Virus record (IMG/VR): IMGVR_UViG_3300028844_001605
Location: 1 to 20,777 of that record
Direction: 5' to 3' (one strand)
Source: a virus
DNA length: 20,777 nt
Positions 678 to 20,777 of this stretch are shown here, in pieces. Position 1 is the first letter of the stretch. Every line of letters begins with the position of its first letter. The translations under genes and the position numbers were made by a program. The notes below the pieces were generated by a model, which saw nothing but the letters and a program-made list of their open reading frames with translations, ran no database searches and was not told the DNA's origin.

Positions 678-680
678 ATA

Positions 681-720: not shown

Positions 721-742
721 AATGCAACCAAAAGGACAATTA

Positions 743-1027: not shown

Positions 1028-1262
1028 GCTAGATCCTACCTGTCAAGCAGTCTTGGTTGGCATCTTAAAAGGTTTAAGCAACACTGAGATAGCAAACAAG
1101 CTAGGTAAATCAGATAATCATATTCGTATGCAACTCTATAAAATCTTAGAGTATTATGAATTACGTTCTCGTCCTCAGTTGCTTGCGGAATATGTTTGCG
1201 AATATGCCTTAGAGTGGGAAACTAAACAATTAGAGGGTACAAAATATCATGGAATTATTTGA
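1014..1262 (+). CDS. second LuxR/GerE-type helix-turn-helix protein, 82 aa
   Basis: Residues 11-60 again fit the LuxR-type helix-turn-helix: AVLVGILKGLSNTEIANKLG, then a recognition helix around SDNHIRMQLYKILEYYEL and the closing RSRPQLLAEYV. The LSNTEIA stretch is close to the family consensus LSNKEIA. No sensory domain is present. GGAGGG at 999-1004, inside the upstream gene, is placed 9 bases before the ATG. The 14-base overlap with the previous gene and shared fold suggest an old tandem duplication, though the two differ greatly in sequence. LuxR-type HTH domains usually act as dimers, so the pair could form a heterodimer; that is inference. Confidence 0.82.
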   Translation: MKKDKLDPTCQAVLVGILKGLSNTEIANKLGKSDNHIRMQLYKILEYYELRSRPQLLAEYVCEYALEWETKQLEGTKYHGII

Positions 1263-1419
1263 TGTGCTAATATTGAGTGTGTATGAAAAGCCAAAAAGAA
1301 TAAGAACAGGAATTACTAGCAAGGAATTCGATACTTTTAATAGAGAGTGGGATCAAGTTAAAGATAAGGGTACAACACTATGCCTAGTGCCACATTATAA
1401 GGAAGGTCTTGATGAATAG
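1249..1419 (+). CDS. small hypothetical ORF, 56 aa
   Basis: This short frame starts at ATG 1249, overlapping the preceding gene by 14 bases, the same overlap as between the two regulators. It ends TAG at 1417-1419, overlapping the primase-helicase start at 1412 by 8 bases. GAGGG at 1233-1237 is a possible, somewhat distant, ribosome site. The product starts MELFDVLILSVYEKPKRI and is mixed in charge with no known motif. The frame fills what would otherwise be a 149-base gap in a genome with almost no gaps, the main argument that it is real. Confidence 0.6.
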   Translation: MELFDVLILSVYEKPKRIRTGITSKEFDTFNREWDQVKDKGTTLCLVPHYKEGLDE

Positions 1420-3094: not shown

Positions 3095-3095
3095 T

Positions 3096-3584
3096 ATGTT
3101 AAATCAAAAAACTTTGAAGAAATATTTAAATTATGATCCTGAAACTGGAGTGTTTAAAAGAAAGATAAATAGTGGTAAAGCTAAAATTGGAGATGTTGCT
3201 GGTGGTATTAATGGTTCGGGCTATATTTGTATAAGAATTAATAGTGTTAAATATAGGGCTCATAGGTTAGCTTGGTTGTATGTCCATGGTAAGTTTCCAG
3301 ACAATCAAATAGATCACATTAACAGAATAAAAACTGATAACAGGATAGAAAACCTTAGAGATGTCACTCAATCTGTAAATGCTAAGAATAGAGATCTTCC
3401 ATCTAATAATACCTCTGGTCATATAGGAGTTAAATGGAACAAAAAACAACAGGCTTGGAAAGTTGCAGTGTGTCAAGGTCATTATGGTAGTTTTAAATGT
3501 AAACTAGACGCTGTAGCTAAAGCTAAAGAGGTCTACAAAGAACTTGGATACCATGAAAACCATGGAAGGGCTTGCAATGACTGA
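3096..3584 (+). CDS. free-standing HNH endonuclease with AP2-like DNA-binding domain, 162 aa
   Basis: A homing-type HNH endonuclease that would nick or cut DNA at a specific site to spread its own gene. The core lies around residues 54-90: YRAHRLAWLYVHGKFP, then IDHINRIKTDNRIENLR, the typical 'HRLAW...DHINxxxxDNRIENL' pattern of intron- and phage-borne HNH proteins. The C-terminal part (SGHIGVKWNKKQQAWKV, then a GSF and AxAKxxY region) fits the AP2-like DNA-recognition fold common in these enzymes. GAGGAG at 3082-3087 serves the ATG at 3096. It sits between primase-helicase and polymerase, one base from the former and overlapping the latter by 8 bases, so it is an inserted passenger that now supplies the polymerase ribosome site. 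No intron is evident. Confidence 0.92.
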   Translation: MLNQKTLKKYLNYDPETGVFKRKINSGKAKIGDVAGGINGSGYICIRINSVKYRAHRLAWLYVHGKFPDNQIDHINRIKTDNRIENLRDVTQSVNAKNRDLPSNNTSGHIGVKWNKKQQAWKVAVCQGHYGSFKCKLDAVAKAKEVYKELGYHENHGRACND

Positions 3585-5385: not shown

Positions 5386-5396
5386 GGAGATTAAAA

Positions 5397-6032
5397 ATGG
5401 GATTTGAAAGGAAGTCACAACCAAGAGTTGCTAGCACCATGGAGTATGAAAACCTAACAGAGGGCGAACATGAAGCAAGGTTAATCTATGTAGCTGACTT
5501 GGGTATGCAAAACAGAGAGTACAAGGGTGAGGTTAAACCACCTGCACAACAAATATCTTTGTGCTTTGAAGTGCTAGGCTCTACTATTAAGATAGATGAT
5601 GTAGAACAACCTAGAATTATTTGGTCTAAACCTTTTAATATATTTGGTACTATGTCTGGCTTGTCAACAGAGTATGATTACTTTAAGGCTTTTGTACCTA
5701 CTGCTAAAGAGGATACAACTGCTGATTGGGAATCAGTATTAGGTGAACCAGTTAATATTATTATCAAACACGTCCACAAAGATGGTGCTGTGTACGATAA
5801 TGTATCTGGTATTACTGCTATTCCTAGCAAGTATCGTTCTAAGGTAGATAAGGCTGTTACTACTGAGTTTGCTATAGCTGGCTCTGAAGATGTTGATAGT
5901 CCTGCTATTAAAACTTTGTTTGGTTTAGCTAAACACGTTCACGATAAACGTATTACTGGTAATGTTGCACCAGCTAAAGAGCCACAGCCAGTAATAGAAG
6001 AAGAAGTTTTTGATGATGCTGTTCCTTTCTAA
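5397..6032 (+). CDS. single-stranded DNA-binding protein (T7 gp2.5-type role), 211 aa
   Basis: Probably the phage single-stranded DNA-binding protein. The body is a mixed beta-rich stretch without cysteines in a motif (about residues 20-150), followed by a linker with KEPQPVIEEEVFDDAVPF at the very end. An acidic tail closing with a Pro-Phe tip is the hallmark of SSBs (E. coli SSB ends DDDIPF; T7 gp2.5 ends in an acidic Phe tail), where it recruits polymerase and helicase. The place directly after the polymerase and before the exonuclease agrees. AAGGAG at 5384-5389 precedes the ATG well. I could not align the core to a known family by eye, so the call rests on the tail, size and context. Confidence 0.75.
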   Translation: MGFERKSQPRVASTMEYENLTEGEHEARLIYVADLGMQNREYKGEVKPPAQQISLCFEVLGSTIKIDDVEQPRIIWSKPFNIFGTMSGLSTEYDYFKAFVPTAKEDTTADWESVLGEPVNIIIKHVHKDGAVYDNVSGITAIPSKYRSKVDKAVTTEFAIAGSEDVDSPAIKTLFGLAKHVHDKRITGNVAPAKEPQPVIEEEVFDDAVPF

Positions 6033-6755
6033 GTGAAAGCCTTAATAGATGGTGACATCATAGCTTACAGGGTAGGCTTTGCTTGTCAAAAGAAGGATAA
6101 GGAAACAGGGTTAGTTACGGCTGACCCTAAACCTTATGCTCTCCATTCTACTAAGCTCTATGTCAATCAGATAATAGACGACTGTGGCTGCAATAGCTAC
6201 ACCATATACCTCACACCTAAGACAACCTTTCGTAACAAAGTAAGAGATGACTACAAAGGCAATAGGAAAGACATTGCTAAACCAGTTCATCTTGAGGCTA
6301 TCCGTACCTACCTGGTTAATATTTACAAAGCTAAAGTGGTAGATAATATAGAAGCTGATGATGCGTTAGGTCTTAAACAAGATCCTGGTACTATGATATG
6401 TAGCATAGATAAAGACTTGTTGATGTGTGAGGGTAATCATTACAACTTTGTAAATAAAACTTTTACAAACGTAACTAAAAAGCAAGGCACTGAATTCTTT
6501 TATCAACAGATGCTGACTGGTGACAGTGCAGATAACATCTTAGGTATTAGAGGTTTGGGTAATGTCAAAGCAAAGAAGATCTTAAATAATACCCTAAGAA
6601 AAAATTGGGATAATATGATTATTGATAGATACATAGAAGAGTTCGGTTATGATGAAGGTCGTAACAGATGCGTTCAGAATAGCCAACTCTTATGGATATT
6701 ACAAAAAAACAAACAAATGCCAATGGACTTTAGTTATGAACAAGTACAGAAGTAA
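6033..6755 (+). CDS. 5'-3' exonuclease (FEN/T7 gp6-like), 240 aa
   Basis: A structure-specific 5' nuclease that would remove RNA primers and degrade host DNA. Metal-binding acids are seen in order: LIDGDIIAYR (D6, D8), the helical arch RDDYKGNRK, NIEADDALG, SIDKDLL, and TGDSADNILGIRGLG followed by NVKAKKIL, the helix-three-turn-helix that grips DNA. This is the full set expected for the family. The start is GTG at 6033, immediately after the SSB stop (TAAGTG); no ribosome site is seen, so translation is probably coupled. The first Met-Lys-Ala-Leu strand leads straight into the catalytic Asp, so no later start would do. The 3' end overlaps endonuclease I by 20 bases. Confidence 0.92.
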   Translation: MKALIDGDIIAYRVGFACQKKDKETGLVTADPKPYALHSTKLYVNQIIDDCGCNSYTIYLTPKTTFRNKVRDDYKGNRKDIAKPVHLEAIRTYLVNIYKAKVVDNIEADDALGLKQDPGTMICSIDKDLLMCEGNHYNFVNKTFTNVTKKQGTEFFYQQMLTGDSADNILGIRGLGNVKAKKILNNTLRKNWDNMIIDRYIEEFGYDEGRNRCVQNSQLLWILQKNKQMPMDFSYEQVQK

Positions 6756-7146
6756 GTATGAAGCTAATATAGCTAAAGACTTAAAAGCTAGAAGAATTAA
6801 ATTTGAGTACGAAACTATAAAGATACCTTACTATTTAAGTAAGAAAGGTAGATGTAAGTTTTGTTCGTCTGGTGTGGTGTTTGTTCACAAAGTATATACA
6901 CCCGACTTTATAATAGGTTCAATTATAGTAGAAGCAAAAGGTAGATTCACTTCAGTTGACAGAACTAAGATGGCTCAAGTGGTAAAAGAGAATCCAAGCC
7001 TTGACATTCGTATGTTGTTTATGCGTGACCAGTGGTGTACTAAAAAGAAAAGAAAAAGATACTCTGATTGGTGTAACGATCATGGTATTAAGTTTGCTTT
7101 TGGTACAGCACTGCCTAAAGATTGGTTAAAGGAGTCAAGAAAATGA
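6736..7146 (+). CDS. T7 gp3-like endonuclease I (Holliday junction resolvase), 136 aa
   Basis: A resolvase that cuts branched DNA, needed to debranch replicating phage DNA and to break up the host chromosome. Alignment by eye to T7 endonuclease I is clear: RSKYEANIAKDL (E9, as T7 E20), IKFEYETIKIPY, YTPDF (D57, as D55), IIVEAKG (E66 and K68, as E65 and K67), SLDIRMLF, then DHGIKFAFGTALPKDWLKE. A frame open back to 6649 exists, but homology begins at the ATG at 6736. Unlike T7, the loop before YTPDF is longer and contains CKFC (C40, C43), with H51 nearby and two more Cys downstream (C101, C113), so a structural metal is possible. Length is near the 149 aa of T7. Confidence 0.94.
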   Translation: MNKYRSKYEANIAKDLKARRIKFEYETIKIPYYLSKKGRCKFCSSGVVFVHKVYTPDFIIGSIIVEAKGRFTSVDRTKMAQVVKENPSLDIRMLFMRDQWCTKKKRKRYSDWCNDHGIKFAFGTALPKDWLKESRK

Positions 7147-7445
7147 TGGATACACTTTATTGCATTTCCTGCGGTACTTGTAATCCTGAGTACAGAATAA
7201 TTAAAGGAATGAAGTCCTGCAAGATTTGTAGAGATGGTGCTGTACTGACTGTCAATGAGATGATAGATGTTATTAATGACCTACAAGTACAAGGGTTATT
7301 ACCTAACAATTTCTTGAGTGACAGAGTAGAGCAACAGTTTCAACGAGGGGAGATAGATTTTGATGATGACCTCCTATCCGTTGAACAAGCAATAGCATTA
7401 GAAGATGCTATGCGTGATATGTACGACATAGATGAGGAGCGTTAA
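7143..7445 (+). CDS. hypothetical zinc-ribbon protein, 100 aa
   Basis: Function unknown. The N-terminus carries a zinc-ribbon-like set of cysteines, C7, C10 and C13 followed by C26 and C29 (YCISCGTC ... KSCKIC), which would make a small treble-strand metal site. The remainder is acidic and helical (VEQQFQRGEIDFDDDLLSVE and an MYDIDEER end). AAAGGAG at 7128-7134 lies 8 bases before the ATG at 7143, which overlaps the endonuclease stop (ATGA); a TTG at 7122 is less likely. Phage zinc-ribbon proteins of this size often bind nucleic acid or polymerase. Placed between endonuclease I and a phosphoesterase, it may belong to DNA processing, but that is a guess. Confidence 0.78.
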   Translation: MMDTLYCISCGTCNPEYRIIKGMKSCKICRDGAVLTVNEMIDVINDLQVQGLLPNNFLSDRVEQQFQRGEIDFDDDLLSVEQAIALEDAMRDMYDIDEER

Positions 7446-7446
7446 A

Positions 7447-8205
7447 ATGAAAATATGCGTGATACCAGATACACAGGTTAAGCCTGATGTACCACTAGAC
7501 CACTTGCTGTACGCAGGTAGGTACATAGCATCTAAGAAACCTGATGTTATTGTAATGATAGGTGATTGGTGGGATATGGAATCTCTCTGTTCATACGATA
7601 AAGGCAAAGCATCTTTTGAAGGCAGGAGATACAAGAAGGACATAGATGCAGGTAACTTGGCTATGGACTTGTTCTTACAACCTATCAAAGCAGAGCGTGA
7701 GAGATTAAAGGTAAACAAGAAGAAGCAGTGGAAGCCTAGAATGGTATTTACCATTGGTAACCACGAGCAAAGAATTGAAAGAGCTATTGAGAACGATTGT
7801 ATTCTAGAAGATACTATAGGCTACCAGGATCTTAATTTAGATGATTGGGAAGTAGCTGACTTCTTACAGCCTGTTATAATAGAAGGTGTAGCTTTCTCTC
7901 ATTACTTTACTACTGGTGTTATGGGTAGACCTGTAACCAGTGCTAGAGCTATGCTCACTAAGAAGATGATGTCCTGTGTAATGGGTCATGTACAAGATAG
8001 AGATATAGCTTATGGTAAACGAGCAGACAACGCTAGATTAACAGGATTGTTTGCTGGTATGTTTACTCAACATGATGAAGGATATTTAGGTAATCAAGGT
8101 AACAGTTCTTGGAAAGGTATATGGTTGTTAAACGAAGTAGAGAATGGTAGCTTTGATGAGTTGCCTGTATCACTTAATTATTTAAAGAATAAGTATGGAG
8201 GATAA
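7447..8205 (+). CDS. calcineurin-like metallophosphoesterase, 252 aa
   Basis: A dimetal phosphoesterase hydrolysing a phosphate ester that cannot be named from sequence. The order of metal ligands is clear: PDTQ (D8, with Q10 where DxH is usual), MIGDWWD (D40), IGNHE (N105, H106, with E107 for the usual D), then SHY (H153) and GHVQ (H182). DxQ variants occur in phage-borne members of this fold. GAGGAG at 7434-7439 is correctly spaced for ATG 7447; an upstream in-frame ATG at 7432 would place the start inside the previous gene without a ribosome site. It lies in the replication and nucleotide block, so a nucleotide, cyclic nucleotide or DNA-end substrate is plausible. Confidence 0.88.
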   Translation: MKICVIPDTQVKPDVPLDHLLYAGRYIASKKPDVIVMIGDWWDMESLCSYDKGKASFEGRRYKKDIDAGNLAMDLFLQPIKAERERLKVNKKKQWKPRMVFTIGNHEQRIERAIENDCILEDTIGYQDLNLDDWEVADFLQPVIIEGVAFSHYFTTGVMGRPVTSARAMLTKKMMSCVMGHVQDRDIAYGKRADNARLTGLFAGMFTQHDEGYLGNQGNSSWKGIWLLNEVENGSFDELPVSLNYLKNKYGG

Positions 8206-8206
8206 A

Positions 8207-8440
8207 ATGACTAAAGTGGTTAAAGGTGTTAGCAGCTTTCAGTGGGGTGGAGATCACTATAGAAAACTACCTATCCAAGTATGGGATTTTATTGCTGCTA
8301 ACAAATTAGATTACTTTCAAGGTAATGTAGTTAAGTATGTATCAAGATACAAAGAGAAAAATGGCTTAGAAGATTTAAAGAAAGCTAAACATTACATAGA
8401 TAAAATTATTGAAAACGACTATACGGAGTACGAAAAATGA
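8207..8440 (+). CDS. DUF3310 protein, 77 aa
   Basis: A small phage protein of the DUF3310 family, recognised by GGDHYRKLPIQVWDFI, then GNVVKYVSRYKEKNGLEDL and a KKAKHYIDKII end, which match the family consensus almost throughout. The family is common in phages infecting diverse bacteria. Annotations sometimes suggest a nucleotide kinase, but no P-loop is visible here, and its biochemical role is not established. GGAGG at 8197-8201 is 5 bases before ATG 8207; the in-frame ATG at 8195 lacks a site. It overlaps the ribonucleotide reductase start by 4 bases (ATGA), suggesting coupled expression and perhaps a role in nucleotide metabolism. Confidence 0.9.
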   Translation: MTKVVKGVSSFQWGGDHYRKLPIQVWDFIAANKLDYFQGNVVKYVSRYKEKNGLEDLKKAKHYIDKIIENDYTEYEK

Positions 8441-12220: not shown

Positions 12221-13527
12221 TTATTTGTACCTTTTTTAGTTACTTTTTTTAAATTGCCTTTTAATATATACTGATCTATTGTTAAACCATCTGTTTTTGC
12301 CAAAGCTTTTATTATAGGTAATGTAAGCGCCCTACCTTCAGCAGGAGAACCAACTGGGCCTTCCCAAAATTGTTGTTTCTTTGAAGCTGGAAAGTTAATA
12401 ATTTCTTCTACTTTTGGTAGTAACCCAATAATTGTTCCTATTTCAGACTGTGCCATTTTTGGATTTATTACTTGACTTGCTAAATCTAAAGCAACTAGTG
12501 GAGATGCAGAAAAACGTACTTCAGACAATACTTTAGGTATAAAACTACCTGTGTACCATGCTCTGGCCTCTTTAGCACTACCAAAAGTAATTCCGGGTGC
12601 TAATTGTTTCATTAACAAATTAACATCTACCTCAGTGACAGGTGCTAATATTCTAGCAACATCTAAAACACGTTCTGTAACAAACCTGTTGTATTTATTT
12701 TTTAATTCTGTTGATTCACCAGCAACTCGACCTTCTGTTACTGAACCTAGCATTGGTCGTGCTTCAAACAAACCAAATATAGTATCTAAGTTATCTTCAA
12801 AGAAAATATTTGACCCTTCTCTTAGAGCTTTAATAGATTTACCTTTTAATTCATTAATTTCTGCTAATCTAGCAGGAGTAGTTGTTGTTGATGGAGTACC
12901 ACTTAATACAGTTTCTTTGTTAGTAATTGGGTTTCTATGAACTTTTTGTTTTAACACACCACCAAATTGATCTCTACCAATTTCTTGTTCGTAAATCTCT
13001 CCAGCTTTTGCTCTTTCTATTTCTAATTTGTCTTCTTCTAACTTTTCTTTAAAGTCTTGAGCTTCTTGTAATCTTTGTTCTGTCGTTTTAAACTCTTCAC
13101 CCTTTCTAAACTCTGTTATATCAAACTCTTTACCTTCTCTAAATTCTTTTGCTGCATTTATTGCTAATTGTCCTTGTGTATTTTGAAGATTGCCTACACT
13201 TATAGCAGACGATAACCTATCTCTAAGAGATTCTCTTTCAATTTTATTAGCAGCTAATTGGTTATTATAAGTTTGTTGTCGAGTTTTACCAAAAGCATTA
13301 GCACTATTAATAAGAGCTGTACCAGCATCTCTACCACTTAGTAAACTAGCAACCCCAGCTATGCCAGCATTAACTTGTGCTTGGTCAGGGTTAGCTAAAA
13401 CATCACCAAAGTTTTGTTGGTCACCTGATAACAACCCAGAGTTAAACACAGGTTGTGTTTGGGTTTGTTGTTGTTGATTAAACAACCTAAGTATGTCTTC
13501 ATTAATATTCATCATATCTTGGGCCAT
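12217..13527 (-). CDS. putative internal virion protein with central coiled coil, 436 aa
   Basis: Unrecognised by motif. It has a Gln-rich start (FNQQQQTQTQPV), then a long charged helical stretch rich in Glu, Lys and Arg (about residues 85-195), likely coiled coil, and an Ala/Leu-rich C-terminal half ending KKVTKKGTNK. Composition and order (after an Ala/Gly-rich protein, before the last large protein) match the internal core or ejection proteins of podoviruses, the gp15 place in T7. The ATG is formed at a TAATG overlap with the preceding stop and has AAGGAG just upstream, a strong ribosome site lying inside the previous gene. Function in DNA ejection is inference. Confidence 0.72.
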   Translation of the reverse strand: MAQDMMNINEDILRLFNQQQQTQTQPVFNSGLLSGDQQNFGDVLANPDQAQVNAGIAGVASLLSGRDAGTALINSANAFGKTRQQTYNNQLAANKIERESLRDRLSSAISVGNLQNTQGQLAINAAKEFREGKEFDITEFRKGEEFKTTEQRLQEAQDFKEKLEEDKLEIERAKAGEIYEQEIGRDQFGGVLKQKVHRNPITNKETVLSGTPSTTTTPARLAEINELKGKSIKALREGSNIFFEDNLDTIFGLFEARPMLGSVTEGRVAGESTELKNKYNRFVTERVLDVARILAPVTEVDVNLLMKQLAPGITFGSAKEARAWYTGSFIPKVLSEVRFSASPLVALDLASQVINPKMAQSEIGTIIGLLPKVEEIINFPASKKQQFWEGPVGSPAEGRALTLPIIKALAKTDGLTIDQYILKGNLKKVTKKGTNK

Positions 13528-14204
13528 TATGTTTTTCTCCTTTTAAATCTCAGGTATAGGTTTTCAGGCCCAGCTATTGGTGGAACTCTTAATGAAGGGC
13601 CAGAAGATGCTGGTGCTGGTTTTTCTTTTTCTTTAGGAAGAAATGAAGGAGCTTGTTGCAAAAGACCTATTTGTAATTTTTCTTTAAAGCCCGGTGTTTT
13701 TGCCACATTTGGGTTGTTTTGTAACAAATTACTTTCAAACCCTTGTTGTGTTAAAGAAGTACCCGGATTAACTGAAGTAGCTGTACTAGGTGTTGCTAAA
13801 CCACTTACTGGATTTTGCATTAAAGCAGCATCAACACCAAATGGGTCTGCTAATATATTAGCACTTGTTGTAGCTTGTTCAGCTGCTAATAGTGGGTCTG
13901 CTGGGTTTAAATATGTTATTGGTGCATTAGTAAGACTTCCTAATGCTGCTTGTTCAGTAGCTAAATTAGCACTAGGGGCTAACAGACCGGTGCTAGTTGC
14001 ACCTGCTCCAGTAGCTGCTGTAGGTACTGCTGTACCAGCTGCTGTTGCTGCTGTTGTCCCTGCTTGAGTTGCCCCAGCTGTTCCACCTGCTGCTAAAAGT
14101 TGCCCACCACCGTAGGCTAAAGCTGCACCTTTAAGCGCACCCTCAATTGGGTTGTCATCTATTAAAGCTCCAGCTGTTGCAAAACCTGCTATAACCCATG
14201 TCAT
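13527..14204 (-). CDS. Ala/Gly/Thr-rich structural protein, 225 aa
   Basis: A low-complexity protein. The N-terminal part is hydrophobic and Gly/Ala-rich (WVIAGFATAGALI, then AALAYGGGQLLAAGG), followed by a Thr/Ala/Gly tract around residues 44-72 and many Asn, Pro and Leu residues. The C-terminus turns basic (LRFKRRKT). Such membrane-active, small-residue-rich proteins appear among podovirus ejection proteins (P22 gp7- or T7 gp14-like in style), but no homology is claimed. GGAG lies before the TAATG overlap with the cupin stop. A long opposite-strand frame at 13453-14067 mirrors its Ala/Gly codons and is not a gene. Confidence 0.7.
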   Translation of the reverse strand: MTWVIAGFATAGALIDDNPIEGALKGAALAYGGGQLLAAGGTAGATQAGTTAATAAGTAVPTAATGAGATSTGLLAPSANLATEQAALGSLTNAPITYLNPADPLLAAEQATTSANILADPFGVDAALMQNPVSGLATPSTATSVNPGTSLTQQGFESNLLQNNPNVAKTPGFKEKLQIGLLQQAPSFLPKEKEKPAPASSGPSLRVPPIAGPENLYLRFKRRKT

Positions 14205-14623
14205 TATTTATTCTCCAAATTAAGTACATCCGAATAGTCCGGTAGTATAATGTCTTCTTCAATTTCTTTAAGATCAGTTTTTTCTGTAGGATGAAAAGTA
14301 ATCCATGTTGTTTCTGTTACTGCGTACACTGCACGTTTAGTGTCAGGCTTTGATTCAAAGATACATGGCCCTTTTAATGTTTCAGTACCAAACGGAGTAG
14401 TAACTCTGCACTCACCTTTTAATATAACATTTAAATGAGGGTGTTTATGTATTTTACCAGTAACAACAGACTGAGCAGGTAAAGTTAATTCACGAGCGTA
14501 CAAACCAAGGCTAAAATAATGTACAGGTTCTAATTTAAGTTGTTCTTGTTTAAGAGCTTCAACTTCTAAAGCTTTAATATTAGACCTGAGTTGTTTTACA
14601 TTTTTAGTTATTGCTTGCATCAT
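14204..14623 (-). CDS. cupin-fold protein, 139 aa
   Basis: Residues about 58-112 show a single cupin: KIHKHPHLNVILKGECRV with His ligands and the VILKGE turn, then TPFGTETLKGPCIFES and a PDTKRAVYAVTETTWITFHP closing strand with a late His. The N-terminal 35 residues form a charged helix. Cupins bind a metal or small ligand and serve as enzymes, sensors or structural pieces; the substrate here is unknown. It lies between the gp14-like protein and the Ala/Gly-rich protein, overlapping them by 4 and 1 bases, so it is made with the virion proteins. It could be a virion component or a late enzyme. Confidence 0.85.
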   Translation of the reverse strand: MMQAITKNVKQLRSNIKALEVEALKQEQLKLEPVHYFSLGLYARELTLPAQSVVTGKIHKHPHLNVILKGECRVTTPFGTETLKGPCIFESKPDTKRAVYAVTETTWITFHPTEKTDLKEIEEDIILPDYSDVLNLENK

Positions 14624-15423
14624 TTACCTAACAGTCCTCCACCACCACCACTTGTTTTAGATGTAGTGTTTTGTCCAAAGTTAATACCGGATAAAATTGA
14701 ATTAACTCTTTGTGCTGTATCAGTAGGTGCAAATTCACCAAACTCAAAACGCGCTCTAGCATCATCAATTCTAGCTTGTTCTCCACTTTGCATATCTCGA
14801 CCTACACCTGTTACTAATGAAGAAGGTGTTAACACACCTTGTTGTATACTAGGTAAAGAATTTAAAATATTTAATTGTTGATTCATACCAGTTCGTTGTG
14901 CATCAGCAAATACTTTTGCTCTAGTGTCACCTAACGTCTGATTAAAGTTTCTAGTAGCTTGGTTAGTTAAAACATTTTGACGATCACCACCAAAAGCACC
15001 TTGAGAAACAGCGGCTGAACCAATACTAGGTAACGTGCTTTCTCGAAACCGTTGTTCCATTGGACGAGTAACTGCTTGAGCATAAGCTTCTGTACGAGGA
15101 TCATTAACTAGATCAGCATTTAAACCTCTTTGAGCTGCACCCATAATATCAGGTGACAACCCACTATTAAGTAATTGAGCAACATCTAATTGTCCTTGTT
15201 GTCCCATACCTATTAGTGCGTTTTCTGATGCTAATGTTTGTTCAGGGTAATAAGTTAAATCACCTTGTGCATCAAGACGGTTAGCAATTTCTAATTGTTT
15301 ATTTAATATTGCAGTTTGTGCAGGGTTTGGAGCAGTAGTTTGTGTTGTTTTACTACCACCACCTTTGCAATGTAAACGAGAATTAAGAAAACACCCTATC
15401 TCTGAATCGTATTGTAATTTCAT
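14620..15423 (-). CDS. internal virion protein, T7 gp14-like position, 267 aa
   Basis: A helical, Gln/Asn/Ala-rich protein with the stretch AAVSQGAFGGDRQNVLTN, then QATRNFNQTLGDTRAKVF, a pattern I associate with podovirus internal or injection proteins. It ends in a flexible Gly run (SGGGGGLLGK). An early KGGGSKTTQTTAPNPAQ linker follows a short N-terminal segment containing two Cys. It directly follows the gp13-position gene and precedes the cupin, each by an ATGA overlap. AGGAAA upstream supports the ATG at 15423. T7 gp14 is 196 aa; this is longer. The assignment is by pattern and gene order. Confidence 0.75.
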   Translation of the reverse strand: MKLQYDSEIGCFLNSRLHCKGGGSKTTQTTAPNPAQTAILNKQLEIANRLDAQGDLTYYPEQTLASENALIGMGQQGQLDVAQLLNSGLSPDIMGAAQRGLNADLVNDPRTEAYAQAVTRPMEQRFRESTLPSIGSAAVSQGAFGGDRQNVLTNQATRNFNQTLGDTRAKVFADAQRTGMNQQLNILNSLPSIQQGVLTPSSLVTGVGRDMQSGEQARIDDARARFEFGEFAPTDTAQRVNSILSGINFGQNTTSKTSGGGGGLLGK

Positions 15424-15824
15424 AATGTTTTTCCTACAGTTATATATCGTTGTTCATATCCAAAATTTTTAAGTGAGCGAGAAAGGTATTTTCTGCCAAC
15501 CGCTTGTATATCAGAGCAACCATTTAATATTGCCCACTCCTCTATAACATCTAATTCAGGTAATGCTTTAATCATACCTGATCCACCTGAATAAACTATT
15601 TCACAAGTTTTTTTTAATGGATATTCATTAATTTGAGTAACAATACAAAAATCGAACTCTTTATCTGTTGAGTGCAACCACATTTGTTTGATACCTGTTT
15701 TAATGTCTTGTTGTACATCTTTAACAGTACGTTCTTTATTACCATGCTCTAAGGCTAATGATACCCAATCCCAAACTACAACAGGTAAAAAATCAAATAC
15801 ATCTTTATGCCAGTGTGCAATCAT
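15420..15824 (-). CDS. T7 gp13-position protein, acetyltransferase-like family, 134 aa
   Basis: It occupies the place of T7 gp13, between the tail tube protein and the gp14-like protein. The C-terminal part (EEWAILNGCSDIQAVGRKYL, then SRSLKNFGYE) fits a phage family with a closing 'GR..W.R.L...Gf' pattern, often listed as GNAT-like. The N-terminus MIAHWHKDVFDFLPV looks globular. Catalytic activity cannot be judged by eye. A GTG at 15839 is in frame, but the ATG at 15824 makes an ATGA overlap with the preceding stop, the junction type used throughout this operon, so I chose it. T7 gp13 is needed for assembly; a similar role is inference. Confidence 0.7.
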   Translation of the reverse strand: MIAHWHKDVFDFLPVVVWDWVSLALEHGNKERTVKDVQQDIKTGIKQMWLHSTDKEFDFCIVTQINEYPLKKTCEIVYSGGSGMIKALPELDVIEEWAILNGCSDIQAVGRKYLSRSLKNFGYEQRYITVGKTL

Positions 15825-16060
15825 CCTAAATGTACCCACGCTGTAGTAGCTAAATTGTACCTGTAAAGGCCAGCTCCTGACGATCCATCAAAACCTGAAC
15901 CTGTTCCATCAGATATAGCTAACCAACCGTCAAATGGATCAATAGGAGCCGCTGAAAGGGGTATTAAACTTACATTATGTGTTAGTGTTCTTAATTTTTC
16001 TTTTAAATCATCAAACTCTTGTTGTATTAAAGTTTGATCGTATTCTTCTGGTAATATCAT
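15821..16060 (-). CDS. small hypothetical protein, 79 aa
   Basis: The N-terminal 30 residues look helical and charged (EEYDQTLIQQEFDDLKEKL), perhaps a short coiled coil. The C-terminal half is compact and Gly/Ser-rich with aromatic residues (ISDGTGSGFDGSSGAGLYRY), ending TTAWVHLG. The design, a coil joined to a small beta motif, suggests a minor tail or fibre-associated subunit, but no family is recognised. It overlaps both neighbours by 4 bases (ATGA), between the tail tube protein and the gp13-position protein. Confidence 0.72.
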   Translation of the reverse strand: MILPEEYDQTLIQQEFDDLKEKLRTLTHNVSLIPLSAAPIDPFDGWLAISDGTGSGFDGSSGAGLYRYNLATTAWVHLG

Positions 16061-17805
16061 CGTGTACCACCTGTTCTACCTTGAACTTCCATATTAGTTA
16101 ATTCCCATGTGTCAGTAGGTGAATTAGCTGAAACTTTTAAAAATAAATATCTACCAGCTGTTCGTAATATTTCTTCTTTAAATGTTTCGTTTACTGTAAA
16201 AGAATCAGTATAAGTTGGAACATCATTAATATTTTCTCCCCAACCTATTTGTATTACTGGGTTACCTAACCCTCTTTTACCAACTCTTATACTAGTAAGT
16301 TCTTTAATTAAATTAGCATCACCTAGATCATGCGCCCTAGTCTCACCTGTAGTAGTTTGAGCTGAAATTCCTGTACCTTCAAAATAAATATTTCCTAAAA
16401 TATCTCCAGAAATAGCATTATCAAAAACACTTGATTCTGTAAATGCTGAAATACTACCGGTTCTAACACCAAACGCTCCGGTTTTATAATTATAATATAT
16501 TTCTTCAGTAGGTTCAGCTGCATTAATAGGTAATGACCAAACTACTTCATCGTTTTTAATATTATGATAAGCTGATACTTGTGGATATTCTGTTTTAGCA
16601 ATATTTTCTCTAATGTATGCTTCAATACCTTCCGCTACGCCAATTTGTTCAACTGTACTACCATTAGTTACAAACAAACCCCTTCTTGATAGTCCGTAAT
16701 TTTGACGACCTACTGATACTACAGCGTTGCTTGACACAGCTCCAATACCTGAAGAAGTAACTACTCTATAACCAAAATAAAAAGGCGCACCAGTATAGTT
16801 TATTAAAAACATTTGATCTTCTGAATAAACAGCTAATCCTGAACCTAATGGTACAATACATTTAAGCTCTGTGTTTGATTCACGAATAGTTAAACTACCT
16901 GCTGAATTAGTAGCTGAAGCTACCCAAGTGTCTGGGTCATCAGCTGAACACCAAGCAAAATCAAAAGGAGAATCATTAGTTGAAGTACTGTAATTAATAG
17001 CTAATATGTGTGGCCCTTGTCTAGCTACAGCTCTGACTCTAGTAAAAAGACAATCAGGTACAGTTACTTTTAATTGAAAACCAGAACCAGATCCTGAAGT
17101 ACTTGCTTGGGTTAATGTATCATTATTAGTAAACCCTGTACCAAAATTAGTTATTTCAAAACTTGTAATAGCACCACCAGTAACAGTGGCTACTGTAGTA
17201 GTAAAACCTGATCCTGAACCACCTGTATGTGTTATAGTGTCTCCTATTACATATCCTGAACCACCAGCATAAACTGTAGCACCTGACACTTTAGTAGCTT
17301 GTAAATCATTAAAATTAATATTAGATTTTTTAATTTGCATAGGGCCAGTATTATTAGCTCCAATAACAAAATTACCAAAACGTGTAAAACTCCACCGTGA
17401 AGCTTGTACAATACTTTCATCCCACACTGTAAGTGTTGAGTCCCAAGTAGTTGAGCCTGAATCCCAATTAGTGTCTCCTGCTTGTTTTACTAACGAGTAA
17501 CCAGTACCAACTGTATTTTTTGTATTAGTATCAAGACGGTAACTATATAAATTGCTTAAATCGCCAGCATATACAATTTTAGTTTCGTATTCATTAAGTG
17601 CTATTAACCCACGAACTGGTTCAGTATTAAAATTAAAAATTAATTCTCTTCCCGGTTTACGTTTTACTGAGTTTTCAGTAAATTGAAGACCATCAACATT
17701 TTTCCAAAAAGAAACATTTTTATCAAATTTATTAAGTTGTACACCTGAACGTATAAGTTCTGTAAGGTCTATATTAAACCCTGTTTCTGTTAATGGTTTA
17801 GGCAT
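16057..17805 (-). CDS. tail tubular protein B / gp12-like (P22 gp10-type fold), 582 aa
   Basis: A late tail protein closing the connector and forming the tail tube, as T7 gp12 or P22 gp10 do. Family-like features: an N-terminal GVQLNKFDKNVSFWKNVDGL region with KRKPGRELIF, a WSFTRFGNFVIGANNTGP blade, AVARQGPHILAINY, FAWCSADDPDTW, a long blade region with LSRRGLFVTNGSTVEQIG, and EIYYNYKTGAFGVR. These repeated beta blades fit a propeller. Between FNDLQATKVSG and PDCLFTRVRAV lies an inserted Gly/Thr-rich domain of about 75 residues (176-250) with GGSGYVIGDTITHTG and NFGTGF repeats. AAAGGA lies 10 bases before the ATG at 17805, which directly follows the fibre stop. Confidence 0.85.
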   Translation of the reverse strand: MPKPLTETGFNIDLTELIRSGVQLNKFDKNVSFWKNVDGLQFTENSVKRKPGRELIFNFNTEPVRGLIALNEYETKIVYAGDLSNLYSYRLDTNTKNTVGTGYSLVKQAGDTNWDSGSTTWDSTLTVWDESIVQASRWSFTRFGNFVIGANNTGPMQIKKSNINFNDLQATKVSGATVYAGGSGYVIGDTITHTGGSGSGFTTTVATVTGGAITSFEITNFGTGFTNNDTLTQASTSGSGSGFQLKVTVPDCLFTRVRAVARQGPHILAINYSTSTNDSPFDFAWCSADDPDTWVASATNSAGSLTIRESNTELKCIVPLGSGLAVYSEDQMFLINYTGAPFYFGYRVVTSSGIGAVSSNAVVSVGRQNYGLSRRGLFVTNGSTVEQIGVAEGIEAYIRENIAKTEYPQVSAYHNIKNDEVVWSLPINAAEPTEEIYYNYKTGAFGVRTGSISAFTESSVFDNAISGDILGNIYFEGTGISAQTTTGETRAHDLGDANLIKELTSIRVGKRGLGNPVIQIGWGENINDVPTYTDSFTVNETFKEEILRTAGRYLFLKVSANSPTDTWELTNMEVQGRTGGTR

Positions 17806-18660
17806 TTACGCAGTCCTTTTCCACATGTAAACTGTTATGAATGGTTGGTAGTTAGAATTAGTGCCATCATATGTAATACCATGAGTGTGACCTGCTCCAC
17901 CACCTTGACTAGGTATAAAACTAGTTGAAGTGCTTGGTGTTAAATACCCTCTTAATCTTGATAATAAACCTTGCGCACCTTGAATAGTAAAATCACCAAT
18001 ACCTGATGTAGAATGTGCATCACCGGGGTGAGTGTGAGCTGGCATTTCATCTATTGTTAAAGTGTGTGAATCTGTAGTACTAGAAATAGTAATATCAGCA
18101 TCACCACCTGTTTCTTCAACTGTGTCAAACAATGCATTACCACTATCAATACCAATCATAACACGACCAGTGCCAAATGCAGCCCATGTACCAAACCCTA
18201 GTAATGTAGCAGGATTAGTAGCTACAGCAGCGTTTGTATAAATACTACCTACTGGATAAAGAGTTCCAGTTTCAGCTGGGTTTATTAATATCCAAACAGT
18301 ATTAGAAGCATCGTATTTAAGAATAAGACGATGGTTTGATCCAGCAATATTACCAGCTACTAAAGCAGCTCCTGAATTTTTAACAATAGTTTTAGCACCA
18401 GTGCCATCTACATCTAATGTAGGTGTAGCAGTAGTGTTAGCTAAAGCAGCTTTAATACATATTGTTACACCTTCAGCTAAAACAATATTATTAACAAAAT
18501 CAGCAGTTAAAACATCAGCAGTTCCACCAGCTGTAACTTGATCTTCAGTTGCTCTCATGAGTTCGTTTAACTCACCTTTAGCTAATGTAAAATTATCTCT
18601 TACTGAAGAGGTTGTTGCTGTACCTGTTGTTGGTTTAGTTGCATCAATACTTGAAGCCAT
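17806..18660 (-). CDS. tail fibre with collar-type C-terminal domain, 284 aa
   Basis: A likely receptor-binding or tail-tip protein. The N-terminal half is Thr/Ala-rich and repetitive (ASSIDATKPTTGTATTSS at the start), as in fibre shafts. The C-terminal half is a phage tail collar-like domain: LYPVGSIYTN, LGFGTWAAFGTGRVMIGID, EETGGDADI, EMPAHTHPGDAHS, GGGAGHTHGITYDG and a YQPFITVYMWKRTA end. The HTH and HxH pairs are typical of trimeric knobs that bind metal. GGAG at 18668-18665 (reading leftward) precedes ATG 18660; a non-ATG start at 18690 is less likely. It lies one base after the 106-aa gene and abuts the tail tube gene. Confidence 0.88.
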   Translation of the reverse strand: MASSIDATKPTTGTATTSSVRDNFTLAKGELNELMRATEDQVTAGGTADVLTADFVNNIVLAEGVTICIKAALANTTATPTLDVDGTGAKTIVKNSGAALVAGNIAGSNHRLILKYDASNTVWILINPAETGTLYPVGSIYTNAAVATNPATLLGFGTWAAFGTGRVMIGIDSGNALFDTVEETGGDADITISSTTDSHTLTIDEMPAHTHPGDAHSTSGIGDFTIQGAQGLLSRLRGYLTPSTSTSFIPSQGGGAGHTHGITYDGTNSNYQPFITVYMWKRTA

Positions 18661-18661
18661 T

Positions 18662-18982
18662 TTATTCTCCGTTGTTCCAGAAACCACCACCTGTTCCGGG
18701 GGTTTTTGTTATGTTGCCGTACAGACTGCCTGTACCTGTTTTAGTACTTGTGTTCCAAAATCCAGAACCTTTATTATCATTGTTTTCTGGTAAAAAAGCT
18801 GGTTCATAAAAACCACCTAACCCTGTTGTTGATTCAGTTACAATTACAGATGTTAAATTATTTAATGTATTAGACAATGTTGCAATAGTTATTACTTCAA
18901 AATTAATAGTCCTAGATGCAAAAGGGGTATCAGCAAAAGCTGAGTCTCCAAAACCACCACGTATTTGTCTAATAGCTGTCAT
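18662..18982 (-). CDS. hypothetical structural-type protein, 106 aa
   Basis: No family recognised. The N-terminus reads MTAIRQIRGGFGDSAFADTP. The middle is hydroxyl- and branched-residue-rich (IATLSNTLNNLTSVIV) and the C-terminus is Gly/Asn-rich with two similar pieces, GSGFWNTS and GGGFWNNGE. Composition and position directly upstream of the fibre gene suggest a small tail or fibre-attachment protein or decoration. AAGG lies upstream of the ATG, within a 10-base spacer after the preceding gene. The repeated GFWN pieces may be a short structural repeat. Confidence 0.68.
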   Translation of the reverse strand: MTAIRQIRGGFGDSAFADTPFASRTINFEVITIATLSNTLNNLTSVIVTESTTGLGGFYEPAFLPENNDNKGSGFWNTSTKTGTGSLYGNITKTPGTGGGFWNNGE

Positions 18983-18992
18983 TTATAATACC

Positions 18993-19217
18993 TTAATTTA
19001 ACCACTTACTAAATATTTGACTACCAAGGCCACCTAGTCCCATTGCTATAAATATAGCTCCAGCAAACATTCCCTTTCCTTTAGCCATTTGTTTTTCTAA
19101 TTCATTTACTCGTTCAGATAACATAGTGCAAGTTTTATTCATTTCACTTATTTCATTATTAAGCTGAGTAACTACTGCTACTAACTGTCCTGCTTCGTAA
19201 TCTGTCATGTTAGACAT
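18993..19217 (-). CDS. small coiled-coil membrane protein, 74 aa
   Basis: An N-terminal helical stretch (about residues 5-45, with NNEISEMNKTCTMLSERV and NELEKQM) that looks like a coiled coil is followed by a C-terminal hydrophobic segment, GMFAGAIFIAMGLGGLG, ending FSKWLN. A coil plus a single membrane anchor is seen in phage spanin- or holin-associated and tail-tip proteins, but no family can be named. AGGTG sits before ATG 19217; a GTG at 19223 is also in frame. It lies in a cluster of tiny membrane and basic proteins near a holin, so a lysis role is plausible but unproven. Confidence 0.68.
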   Translation of the reverse strand: MSNMTDYEAGQLVAVVTQLNNEISEMNKTCTMLSERVNELEKQMAKGKGMFAGAIFIAMGLGGLGSQIFSKWLN

Positions 19218-19229
19218 TCTCACACCTAT

Positions 19230-19361
19230 TTATTTTTTCTTTTTAGGAAACCCAGCTTTCATATTTTTATAAGCTTTAGCAGAAACTGTTGATTTGCTTT
19301 TAGGTCTGCTTATACCTTTCTTTTTTCTTGCGTTAATATTAGCGTACAATCCTTTAGCCAT
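19230..19361 (-). CDS. very basic small protein, 43 aa
   Basis: A 43-codon frame from ATG 19361 to TAA at 19232-19230. The product starts MAKGLYANINARKKKGISR and ends GFPKKKK, with 12 Lys and 3 Arg residues and only neutral residues otherwise. Similar Lys-rich peptides starting M-x-KGLYANI are familiar from tailed phages, but their role is not known to me. The stop of the preceding gene and this ATG share one base (TAATG), so translation is coupled. The charge suggests nucleic-acid or membrane binding, or a minor virion part. Confidence 0.72.
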   Translation of the reverse strand: MAKGLYANINARKKKGISRPKSKSTVSAKAYKNMKAGFPKKKK

Positions 19362-19504
19362 TATTTTTTTCCTTTTGGTTTAGTGTGTGTTAAATATTCA
19401 CTACTAGCAGTATGTTTAGCACCTGTCATTAATTTACCATTAGTTTTATGTGTTTTACCTTTGTACAACTTACCATTTTTTTTGTAATGTGAAACACCTT
19501 TCAT
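19361..19504 (-). CDS. very basic small protein with internal repeat, 47 aa
   Basis: A 47-codon frame from ATG 19504 with AAGGAAAA upstream. It contains two adjacent similar units, KKNGKLYKGKTHK and KTNGKLMTGAKHT, a simple NGKLxxGxxH repeat that would make a short repeated beta-hairpin. The C-terminus is SSEYLTHTKPKGKK. Strongly basic, no membrane segment. Small repeat peptides of this type occur in marine phage genomes, to my recollection, but no function is known. It overlaps the next gene by one base and follows a 53-aa membrane protein gene. Confidence 0.72.
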   Translation of the reverse strand: MKGVSHYKKNGKLYKGKTHKTNGKLMTGAKHTASSEYLTHTKPKGKK

Positions 19505-19518
19505 ATTATTTTCCTTAA

Positions 19519-19680
19519 TTACCATTGGTGTATACAGTTAGCTATTATAGCTATACAAGTTGCTATGTTTAACAACACCCAAAAAGTTCTAATTAGTGCA
19601 ACCTTGTCTGATTTTTTATTATCTTTAAATGCTTTGTGACCTAATGCCTTGCACCAAAGCTCCCACCAACTCTTTACCAT
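19519..19680 (-). CDS. small membrane protein, 53 aa
   Basis: A 53-codon frame from ATG 19680 to TAA at 19521-19519. The first half is polar and basic with WWELWCKALGHKAF. The second half has one hydrophobic segment, FWVLLNIATCIAIIANCI, and a short HQW end, so it is likely a single-span inner-membrane protein. The start lies inside the DUF6321 gene (ATGGTAA, 7-base overlap), so translation is probably coupled. Near a holin and other membrane proteins, it may be a holin partner, antiholin or superinfection factor; that is speculation. Confidence 0.6.
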   Translation of the reverse strand: MVKSWWELWCKALGHKAFKDNKKSDKVALIRTFWVLLNIATCIAIIANCIHQW

Positions 19681-19955
19681 TTAACTTTATCAGCCCAGTA
19701 AGCTGCTGACATTTTACCTTTTGCTATATTAGCACCGTGTCTAGCTTTAAATGATTTTCGTTTAGCTTTCATTCTAGCAGATTCACCAGCTTTTGGTTTA
19801 CCAGCAGTACTAGCACCCTGTTGTCCAAATCTAATAGTTTTTGTTTTATCTCCACTTTTAGCTACAACTACATGAGATTTTTTAGGGTGGCTAGGTGTAC
19901 GCTTTGGTTTGTTATAACCACTAACACCAGCTTTTTTTAATTTAGTATCTTTCAT
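19674..19955 (-). CDS. DUF6321 protein, 93 aa
   Basis: A conserved basic phage protein. Features match the family I know as DUF6321: AGVSGYNKPKRTPSHPKKSH, VVVAKSGDKTKTIRFGQQG, STAGKPKAGESARMKAKRKS, then FKARHGANIAKGKMSAAYWA and a DKVKW end. Very Lys/Arg-rich with one predicted beta strand pair and no membrane segment. Members occur widely in marine bacterial and cyanobacterial phages; the function is unknown, with DNA or virion binding suggested only by charge. The ATG overlaps the holin stop (ATGA) with no clear ribosome site, implying coupling. Confidence 0.88.
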   Translation of the reverse strand: MKDTKLKKAGVSGYNKPKRTPSHPKKSHVVVAKSGDKTKTIRFGQQGASTAGKPKAGESARMKAKRKSFKARHGANIAKGKMSAAYWADKVKW

Positions 19956-20326
19956 TTTTTAAACATCTTAGTCATAGCTTTAACACCAAATGATGCAGCA
20001 AATACAACACCTACTGCTGTTTTGTAAAAATCAGGCATAGCTTCTAGTGCTACAAACCCCCTCATTACTACATCTTCATATCCCACAAAAGCTAAAATTA
20101 ATGGAATTGAAACAAGTATTGTAAGGTACTCATCTTTCCAAGAATTAGCACTAGCATCAGCCATTTTGTTATCCCAAGCAATTTCACCACTAGCTATTTT
20201 TCTTTTAACTTCTGCATCAGCAGTAATAGTAACTAATTTTGCTTTTTGTTTTACTTTAGCTAAGTCTTGTTTACCTTTAACAAAAGATGAAACTAAACCA
20301 ACTAATGGTGATATTAAACCTAACAT
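19952..20326 (-). CDS. holin, GTA-type three-membrane-segment family, 124 aa
   Basis: Probably the phage holin, which permeabilises the inner membrane at lysis. Three hydrophobic stretches appear: residues 1-16 (LGLISPLVGLVSSFV), about 65-84 (YLTILVSIPLILAFVG) and about 102-118 (KTAVGVVFAASFGVKAM). The middle carries the A...NSWKDEY motif preceding the second segment that is typical of the 'holin of 3TMs, for gene-transfer release' family. The C-terminus is basic (MTKMFKK). AGGAAA precedes the ATG. It lies 9 bases after the 111-aa membrane protein and overlaps DUF6321 by 4 bases. The endolysin is not in the window. Confidence 0.8.
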   Translation of the reverse strand: MLGLISPLVGLVSSFVKGKQDLAKVKQKAKLVTITADAEVKRKIASGEIAWDNKMADASANSWKDEYLTILVSIPLILAFVGYEDVVMRGFVALEAMPDFYKTAVGVVFAASFGVKAMTKMFKK

Positions 20327-20335
20327 AATAATTTC

Positions 20336-20671
20336 CTAATAGTTCAACGGATTTTCTAATGCTTTAGTTATTTTCTTATCTATTCGTTCTTCTATCTTGT
20401 ACATATCAGTAGATAGCTTTTCTATAATCTTTACTTGTTGTTCCATAGTCTGACGAATAGTGAGGTTCTCTGCTTGAAACACTGCTACTTGTTGCTTAAT
20501 ACCACTTAGGTCTGGTGCAACATAACTCATAATCTGTGCTTTCATATCTGTGTAATCTTTGTAAAACTCAAACCCACCCCACAAACCACCTACAATACTT
20601 GTAACTAAGGGTACGATAAGTAGTAGTTTACTGCCACCTACTTTGATTCCTTGATATTCTATCTCTGCCAT
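20336..20671 (-). CDS. membrane-anchored coiled-coil protein, 111 aa
   Basis: The N-terminal tail (AEIEYQGIKVGGS) leads to one hydrophobic segment at about residues 15-36 (KLLLIVPLVTSIVGGLWGGF), followed by a long helical part with heptad-like spacing (QTMEQQVKIIEKLSTDMYKI, then EERIDKKIT). The layout, one span then a coil, fits a spanin-like or holin-associated protein, but there is no lipobox and no firm family. AAAGGA upstream supports the ATG at 20671. It is the first complete gene of the - strand module in the window and sits directly before the holin. Confidence 0.68.
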   Translation of the reverse strand: MAEIEYQGIKVGGSKLLLIVPLVTSIVGGLWGGFEFYKDYTDMKAQIMSYVAPDLSGIKQQVAVFQAENLTIRQTMEQQVKIIEKLSTDMYKIEERIDKKITKALENPLNY

Positions 20672-20775
20672 TGTGTATTCCTTTGTGGATATTGTAAGTC
20701 TTCTAACCTTATAAAGTTTTTATCGTTTACAAACCATCTAGCAAAAGCATTATCTACATTATCTTTACTAGGGTA
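20659..20775 (-). CDS. C-terminal fragment of a gene cut by the right window edge
   Basis: On the - strand only one frame stays open from the right edge: 38 codons ending TAG at 20661-20659, overlapping the 111-aa gene start by 13 bases. The other two frames meet stops within the first 24 bases. The visible tail contains DNAFARWFVNDKNFIRLEDL and ends NTQWQR; no family can be named from so short a piece. The overlap with a good ribosome site inside it fits the operon style, so it is probably coding. Confidence 0.6.
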   Translation of the reverse strand, partial: YPSKDNVDNAFARWFVNDKNFIRLEDLQYPQRNTQWQR

Positions 20776-20777
20776 GA

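Follow-up and report, generated by a model that had tools for sequence, protein, structure and literature searches.

Introduction

The described systems that come closest to the one reported here are the phage spanins, of which two kinds are distinguished. Two-component spanins pair an i-spanin, which has an N-terminal transmembrane (TM) segment and a periplasmic helical or coiled-coil domain, with a small lipoprotein, the o-spanin; unimolecular spanins are single proteins with an N-terminal lipobox and a C-terminal TM segment. For phages that infect SAR11 and other dominant bacteria of the sea, the breach of the outer membrane is largely without assigned proteins. A spanin survey, which gives the o-spanin lipobox as [LVI][ASTVI][GAS]C, recorded none in 91 of 677 phages (PMC6139136), and a marine methylophage study invoked curli pores for lysis (PMC9004378). 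Here, we describe a row of small genes and an adjoining three-gene unit, referred to as A-B-C, in the IMG/VR virus record IMGVR_UViG_3300028844_001605, a fragment of 20,777 bases that is called the window below. The row lies at positions 18993-20671. Sequence comparison places its 111-amino-acid coil protein, together with an open reading frame (ORF) cut by the window edge, in the conserved A-B-C unit, which lies mostly outside the window and is widespread and apparently undescribed.

Results

Composition of the A-B-C unit

Protein C, the 111-amino-acid protein of the window, has 374 relatives in the viral_contigs collection, the best 80 of which formed the C locus set (numbers beginning with L denote comparison loci throughout). 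In all 79 proteins scored, a single TM segment is predicted near the N-terminus, starting at residue 8-18 and leaving a C-terminal part of 76-178 amino acids; the predicted i-spanin layout is thus present in 79 of 79. The motif NPL occurs within the last 12 residues of 81 of the 81 C ORFs with a complete end and within the last 8 residues of 69, as against 1 of 913 neighbouring ORFs for the last 8. When 28 C proteins with 16-83% identity to the window protein were aligned, the N and the P were the sole invariant columns, and the L was kept in 27. As the C-terminus is preserved through such divergence, it is most easily explained as a putative binding site. A structure search with C returned only coiled-coil-type matches (E 0.011-0.097), and among 50,697 phage records the sole match to C as query was in HTVC115P. 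In L155 (~7338-8378), part of a 356-kb contig, and in L153 (~3309-4305), a second ORF upstream of C likewise ends in KALDNPL, and C may be duplicated there.

Protein B is a secreted-type protein of 400-750 amino acids, with a variable N-terminal part and a conserved C-terminal part, between which lie a long acidic linker and then a Lys-rich segment; in some groups the N-terminal part carries repeats of the type C-x-LYD-x-C-x-GY. A large B ORF belonging to one cluster lies upstream of C in 72 of the 80 C loci. As for the other eight, six contigs begin 110 nucleotides (nt) or less from C, L103 is cut ~1 kb upstream, and L134 has its own 225-amino-acid ORF upstream of C. Of 73 B-C pairs, 36 overlap by exactly 13 nt. 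Seen from the B side (23 loci, two of them cut, most of whose contigs were already in the C set and are hence not independent), C follows in 21 of the 21 loci with downstream sequence, either directly or after 1-3 small ORFs. Full copies of B gave no Pfam or PHROGs family above threshold. As queries against the same 50,697 phage records, B from L094 and L100 found no match, and B from L148 found only HTVC115P. The HTVC115P protein is gp53 (L286:11831-13294); an in-frame ATG upstream of its annotated start adds a signal-type sequence, and the annotated start is probably too late. Proteins of 106-108 amino acids were also seen between B and C (L298:6536-6862 and L098:918-1241), and the ...GLDFKF end of the L298 copy suggests an outer-membrane beta-barrel.

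Protein A, which precedes B, is a small secreted-type protein containing Cys residues. It was found before B in 20 loci by clustering, and additionally in L083, L094 and L095, where it overlaps B. Over 20 sequences, A shows 14 invariant columns; its sole family match is phrog_20531, of unknown function, and no solved structures were found for it. A hydrophobic export-type N-terminus is present in 48 of the 50 B proteins with a start and in 17 of 17 A proteins, compared with 25 of 178 other ORFs of at least 200 amino acids.

Distribution of A-B-C

A profile search with A retrieved at least 600 viral stretches, the best 80 of which were used, and 23 loci in genome_contigs, giving 103 loci. The 76 with at least 3 kb downstream were scored for a B-like ORF (at least 200 amino acids with an export-type N-terminus, within 2.5 kb of A) and a C-like ORF lying no more than 4.5 kb from A (recognised by an N-terminal TM segment and by NPL or NPM close to its end). 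B-like ORFs were present in 71, C-like ORFs in 73 and both in 68. The corresponding background in 194 windows of loci of the DUF-like gene described below, some of which carry the unit, was 18 B-like and 4 C-like.

A is present in 11 annotated phage records, and most of their B and C proteins are too diverged for BLAST. Visual inspection shows the order A-B-C in HTVC115P, Mosig, HTVC023P, HTVC202P, HTVC033P, Baldr and MedDCM-S28-C10. CRP-207 and CRP-810 have A, a smaller protein and C; ct7L0027 has A and a C-like protein ending in NPM; in the A-carrying record ctXG6705, C was not found. The unit thus occurs in T4-like, T7-like and other phages, cultured pelagiphages included, where its genes are unnamed or otherwise named, and its carriers range from genomes of ~32 kb to contigs of more than 350 kb. 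No prior description of A-B-C was found in those parts of the open-licence literature that were searched, which does not show that it is unpublished.

Both CRP-207 gp73 (L316:3292-3873) and CRP-810 gp51 (L317:4662-5084) are annotated as lysozyme or putative lysozyme, but read as an N-terminal TM segment and a coil ending in NPL. They have no hydrolase match, so these labels were rejected as evidence for an endolysin, and both proteins are probable cases of misannotated C.

Genomic context of A-B-C

A-B-C often adjoins a holin-type gene, TerL or an endolysin gene. In T7 the gene order is holin, TerS, two Rz-like spanins and TerL. In L083, a holin-type gene (73% identical to that of the window) is followed by the gene of a 121-amino-acid AT-hook protein, then A, B, C and a gene in the TerL slot, the L090 relative of which is a confirmed TerL. 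The AT-hook protein stands in the TerS slot, and its identity as TerS was not confirmed. In MedDCM-S28-C10, classed in the Autographiviridae, the gene of a 143-amino-acid membrane-type protein precedes A, B and C, and two small ORFs separate C from TerL; in HTVC202P and Baldr, A-B-C is followed by TerL, and in HTVC023P an M15 endolysin comes after C. Upstream of A, HTVC033P carries an endolysin, annotated as lysozyme, and a holin-type gene of phrog_2524, and Mosig carries a GTA_holin_3TM protein (gp203). Relatives of the holin-type gene are present in 31 of the 76 A loci.

In 50 records of the C family, the wall hydrolases found were SleB (13), glucosaminidase (5), Peptidase_M15_3 (3) and lysozyme (6, of which 5 over the cut-off), with no SLT. 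In L103-L106, L107, L134 and L154, the hydrolase gene shares the strand of the unit and lies no more than ~3 kb away; the others are on the opposite strand or 10-24 kb away.

A lipobox scan found no lipoprotein-like ORF in the window, and no lipoprotein spanin candidate on the coding strand in HTVC202P, in 50,000 of the 53,075 bases of HTVC033P or in 28,417 of the 54,819 bases of HTVC115P. One minus-strand candidate each in MedDCM-S28-C10 and in 50,000 of the 60,878 bases of HTVC023P was judged spurious. As controls, the T7 o-spanin was recovered, and P12053L_39 was flagged as lipoprotein-like; its phage, P12053L, is reported to carry a unimolecular spanin. In L100 (4008-4430) and L101 (3974-4396), a 140-amino-acid lipoprotein-like ORF (LSSC) lies ~3.6 kb upstream of C and may be a conventional o-spanin.

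Proposed function of A-B-C

The anatomy of the unit, namely the sequence features of its proteins, their order and conservation, the export-type N-termini and the absence of a lipobox from B, is well supported by the comparisons above. The combination of an inner-membrane coil with two exported proteins suggests that a complex crosses the periplasm, and the position of the genes points to lysis; a lysis function is plausible. We give an even chance to the proposal that A-B-C forms a complex across the envelope and works as an unconventional kind of spanin. A and B would be exported, with B spanning the periplasm through its acidic linker and possibly binding the outer envelope through its N-terminal domain. 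C would be anchored in the inner membrane, presumably with its N-terminus inside, and would reach outwards as a coil, its terminal NPL docking on B or A. Together with the holin and the endolysin, the complex could then disrupt or fuse the outer membrane at lysis, performing the task of a spanin without a lipoprotein. The C-termini of both B and C are conserved, and it is through their C-termini that the subunits of two-component spanins bind; similar binding can be envisaged here.

Several observations weigh against this proposal. Searches of A, B and C against Pfam and PHROGs revealed no hydrolase and no lysis domain of a known kind. The o-spanin lipobox is present in 0 of 50 complete B proteins, and a loose version of the pattern in 5 of 50. 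The predicted AlphaFold2 structure of B has a mean predicted local distance difference test (pLDDT) score of 40.8 and is unusable. An endolysin was found in 24-25 of the 76 A loci, which is weak evidence given loci of ~10.5 kb or less and 18 query enzymes. The unit and the endolysin are often well separated, by 24 kb in HTVC115P and by 10-17 kb in several contigs. A lipoprotein-like ORF lies just upstream of A in CRP-810, and in 6 of 44 C loci a lipoprotein-like candidate lies nearby, two of these being A itself; such ORFs near the unit may be ordinary spanins. With regard to distance, the T7 endolysin likewise lies away from its spanin genes.

Some features fit another function, that of a device for surface remodelling or superinfection exclusion, in which A and B would be exported during infection, the variable N-terminal domain of B would bind host glycans or receptors, and C would tether the complex to the inner membrane. 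In favour of it are the strong variation of the N-terminal part of B from group to group, with a C-terminal part that is retained, the annotation of two B proteins as "putative carbohydrate binding domain containing protein", and the frequent separation from endolysins noted above. We consider this main rival rather unlikely: the unit is found among late genes, close to TerL and genes of the holin type, and known exclusion factors are usually single small proteins. Spanin-like working is the likeliest reading of A-B-C, in our judgement with the balance level, and since B lacks a lipobox the definition of a two-component spanin fails, so the unit is not classed as one.

Organisation of the small-gene row

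The genes of the row and the adjoining end of B are as follows.

20659-20775, minus strand: end of protein B, C-terminal 38 amino acids, cut by the right edge of the window; 100% identical to the end of a 529-amino-acid ORF of L083
20336-20671, minus strand: protein C, 111 amino acids, with an N-terminal TM segment, a coil and the C-terminus ...ALENPLNY
19952-20326, minus strand: holin-type membrane protein, 124 amino acids, phrog_2524; relatives beside endolysins in HMO-2011, CRP-13 and HTVC033P
19674-19955, minus strand: basic DUF6321/DUF5754-like protein, 93 amino acids, phrog_7595; independently moving gene
19519-19680, minus strand: single-span protein, 53 amino acids, phrog_1679
19361-19504, minus strand: basic peptide, 47 amino acids (54 if started from an upstream ATG at 19525)
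19230-19361, minus strand: basic peptide, 43 amino acids, phrog_25774
18993-19214, minus strand: 73-amino-acid protein, a coil followed by a C-terminal TM segment (76 amino acids from a GTG at 19223); independently moving gene

The initial annotation had described these seven small ORFs, DUF6321 among them, as a cluster around a GTA-type holin without a visible endolysin, which looked like a co-translated module, in part for lysis and in part of unknown purpose, and was its best candidate for an undescribed system. All of its ORFs are present, on the minus strand and packed end to end, with neighbours that either overlap by 1-7 nt or are separated by 9-15 nt. Downstream of the 73-76-amino-acid gene come a 106-amino-acid gene and then tail genes, among them that of a 294-amino-acid protein with a Gp10_C tail domain (E 1.6e-28). 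The PHROGs matches have E values of 3e-22 (phrog_25774), 1e-14 (phrog_1679), 8e-42 (phrog_7595) and 6e-25 (phrog_2524). A scan of late-gene proteins, covering 10 at the right end and 7 others of the minus strand, yielded no wall hydrolase, so the statement about the endolysin holds for these proteins of a window that is itself only a fragment. The ORF cut by the window edge was considered as the missing endolysin and rejected, as neither Pfam nor PHROGs shows a hydrolase domain in its full-length relatives.

In L284 and L285, the closest relatives found, the order is 111-124-53-47-43-74-106-294-582, with protein identities of 66-98%; the 93-amino-acid DUF-like gene is missing from both, and the row is otherwise the same. 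Against L284, the ratio of nonsynonymous to synonymous substitution rates (dN/dS) is 0.19 for the 111-amino-acid gene, 0.03 for the holin-type gene, 0.13 for the 53-, 0.21 for the 47-, 0.15 for the 43- and 0.34 for the 74-amino-acid gene. These six small genes common to the window and L284 are under purifying selection and, with ratios of 0.03-0.34, are therefore translated; the recurring order and low ratios mean that the ORFs are not chance occurrences. For the DUF-like gene, comparison with L245 gives a dN/dS of 0.34; with L005 it is 0.07, at a dS of 1.5 that is close to saturation.

When the DNA of the window was compared with that of the loci, the matches stopped at gene borders. Positions 20337-20777 are 99.5% identical to L082/L083, and this match ends one base from the end of the 111-amino-acid gene. 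The DNA of the 93-amino-acid gene matches dozens of loci with both flanks unmatched, and alignment to L284 shows the gene to be cleanly inserted, with 19947-20599 corresponding to 15-667 and 13219-19669 to 667-7067. The 73-76-amino-acid gene was found in 42 loci, in most of which the DNA match is limited to 18978-19217 and the other row genes are absent. The row is best seen as a gene-by-gene mosaic between the end of the conserved A-B-C unit and the tail genes, and the region as a zone of small late genes that are swapped individually.

The initial annotation had named freely varying DUF6321 neighbours, without a conserved set, as the outcome that would speak against it, and this is largely what was seen. 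Neighbours of the DUF-like gene vary: over a distance of 3 kb, the commonest neighbour cluster occurs in 16 of 80 DUF loci. In a sample of 115 DUF loci, enriched through the holin and 111-amino-acid scans, the window proteins within 2 kb were the holin-type (24), 47-amino-acid (8), 111-amino-acid (6) and 43-amino-acid (2) proteins. Partial recurrence was seen as C, the DUF-like gene and the 43-amino-acid gene in L121, as C and the DUF-like gene in L111, L113 and L114, and in phages as C-like gp73 with DUF-like gp71 in CRP-207 and C-like gp51 with DUF-like gp50 in CRP-810. The idea that all of 18993-20671 is a single co-inherited lysis module can draw on this recurrence in the comparison loci, on the tight packing and on the order kept, apart from the DUF-like gene, in L284 and L285. 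Mosaicism precise to gene borders, a 73-amino-acid gene standing alone in most of its loci and the variable DUF neighbours make it very improbable; the DNA comparison and the neighbour survey have already largely refuted it. The packing permits coupled translation; a fixed module centred on DUF6321 is not supported. The apparently undescribed system is the one to which the anchored 111-amino-acid coil belongs, A-B-C, and not the seven-gene row, which is no unit.

The holin-type protein

The 124-amino-acid protein has no Pfam family at E up to 1, and the cut-off of GTA_holin_3TM (PF11351) is thus not reached. Some of its tblastn relatives fall under DUF3154 annotations. In HMO-2011, its relative gp58 lies two genes from the lysozyme gene gp56; CRP-13 has holin-type gp72, endolysin gp70 and DUF-like gp69 in a row; and in HTVC033P, gp49 overlaps gp50, annotated as lysozyme. 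Because relatives adjoin endolysins and some bear DUF3154 labels, the protein is probably a holin, judged by its genomic company. The holin-type label of the initial annotation is therefore retained, with the role read from the context of relatives, and the GTA-type part of it is not carried by a Pfam hit. Its view of the row as partly concerned with lysis agrees with the cultured relatives, in which holin-type and DUF-like genes sit in lysis zones.

The basic and DUF-like proteins

The 93-amino-acid protein is, by profile comparison of its family, a distant relative of DUF6321 and DUF5754. DUF6321 (PF19846) matched 4 of 37 family members (best E 0.0058), the window protein not among them, so that the earlier DUF6321 label is a weak one; DUF5754 (PF19058) matched 16 of 37 (best E 0.0056), and the window protein scored 16.4 bits against it, below the cut-off of 27.4. 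A PDB search with its confidently predicted fold (pLDDT 88.2) gave nothing at E 0.001 or better; for the 93-, 43- and 54-amino-acid proteins, no solved structures were found at E up to 1. In BFVD, the fold matched parts of larger phage proteins and, weakly, a Tunisvirus protein (E 8.8e-3). A literature search on DUF6321 found nothing, and DUF5754 has reportedly been named in connection with a haptophyte virus and polinton-like viruses. The DUF6321/DUF5754 matches and the Tunisvirus fold match point to a possible link between marine phages and viruses of protists.

Relatives of the 47-amino-acid peptide occur in 23 loci, and those of the 43-amino-acid peptide in 25 phage records, mostly of pelagiphages but also as gp59 of cyanophage Syn5. 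The basic and DUF-like proteins could be virion or DNA-binding components that merely share a late operon with membrane genes. This is consistent with a weak match of the 93-amino-acid protein to phrog_220, minor head protein and DNA pilot (3e-4), with the BFVD matches, with a KBS-S-2A relative situated between a minor head protein and a coat protein, and with the location of Syn5 gp59 between a structural gene and terminase. In the roseophages CRP-13, CRP-207 and CRP-810, on the other hand, the DUF-like gene is a lysis-zone neighbour, in CRP-13 directly after the endolysin, and the explanation covers the basic proteins while leaving A-B-C unexplained. We regard it as possible, if a little less than evenly balanced.

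Comparison with known systems

With its A gene in at least 600 viral stretches and also in cultured phages, A-B-C makes the question of how such phages breach the outer membrane directly testable, and the easily recognised C-terminal NPL is a marker for many unnamed genes. We tentatively suggest, at somewhat under an even chance, that A-B-C represents a third kind of phage machine for outer-membrane disruption or envelope bridging, besides two-component and unimolecular spanins.

The holin-type neighbours resemble GTA-type 3TM holins (PF11351, DUF3154) in that the score of Mosig gp203, encoded upstream of A, exceeds the cut-off (25.8 as against 24.8 bits) and that DUF3154 annotations cover some tblastn relatives of the window protein, which differs in having no Pfam hit itself. 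Phage curli pores (CsgGF) of OM43 and SAR11 myophages have likewise been proposed as an envelope lysis aid in marine phages (PMC9004378), but are outer-membrane pore proteins. Unimolecular spanins, such as T1 gp11 and the cobavirus u-spanin, would share with A-B-C the proposed final step, disruption of the outer membrane; they consist of one lipoprotein with a C-terminal TM segment, whereas in A-B-C two or three proteins would share these functions. The two-component spanins (lambda Rz/Rz1; T7 18.5/18.7) are similar in that C has an N-terminal TM segment and a coil, which in spanins is periplasmic, and overlaps or neighbours an exported partner, and the T7 spanins occupy the same gene slots as the unit does in one A-B-C phage lineage. 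In contrast to these spanins, the exported partner in A-B-C is a protein of 400-750 amino acids rather than a small lipoprotein, its gene comes first, a further exported protein, A, is present, and C carries an invariant NPL.

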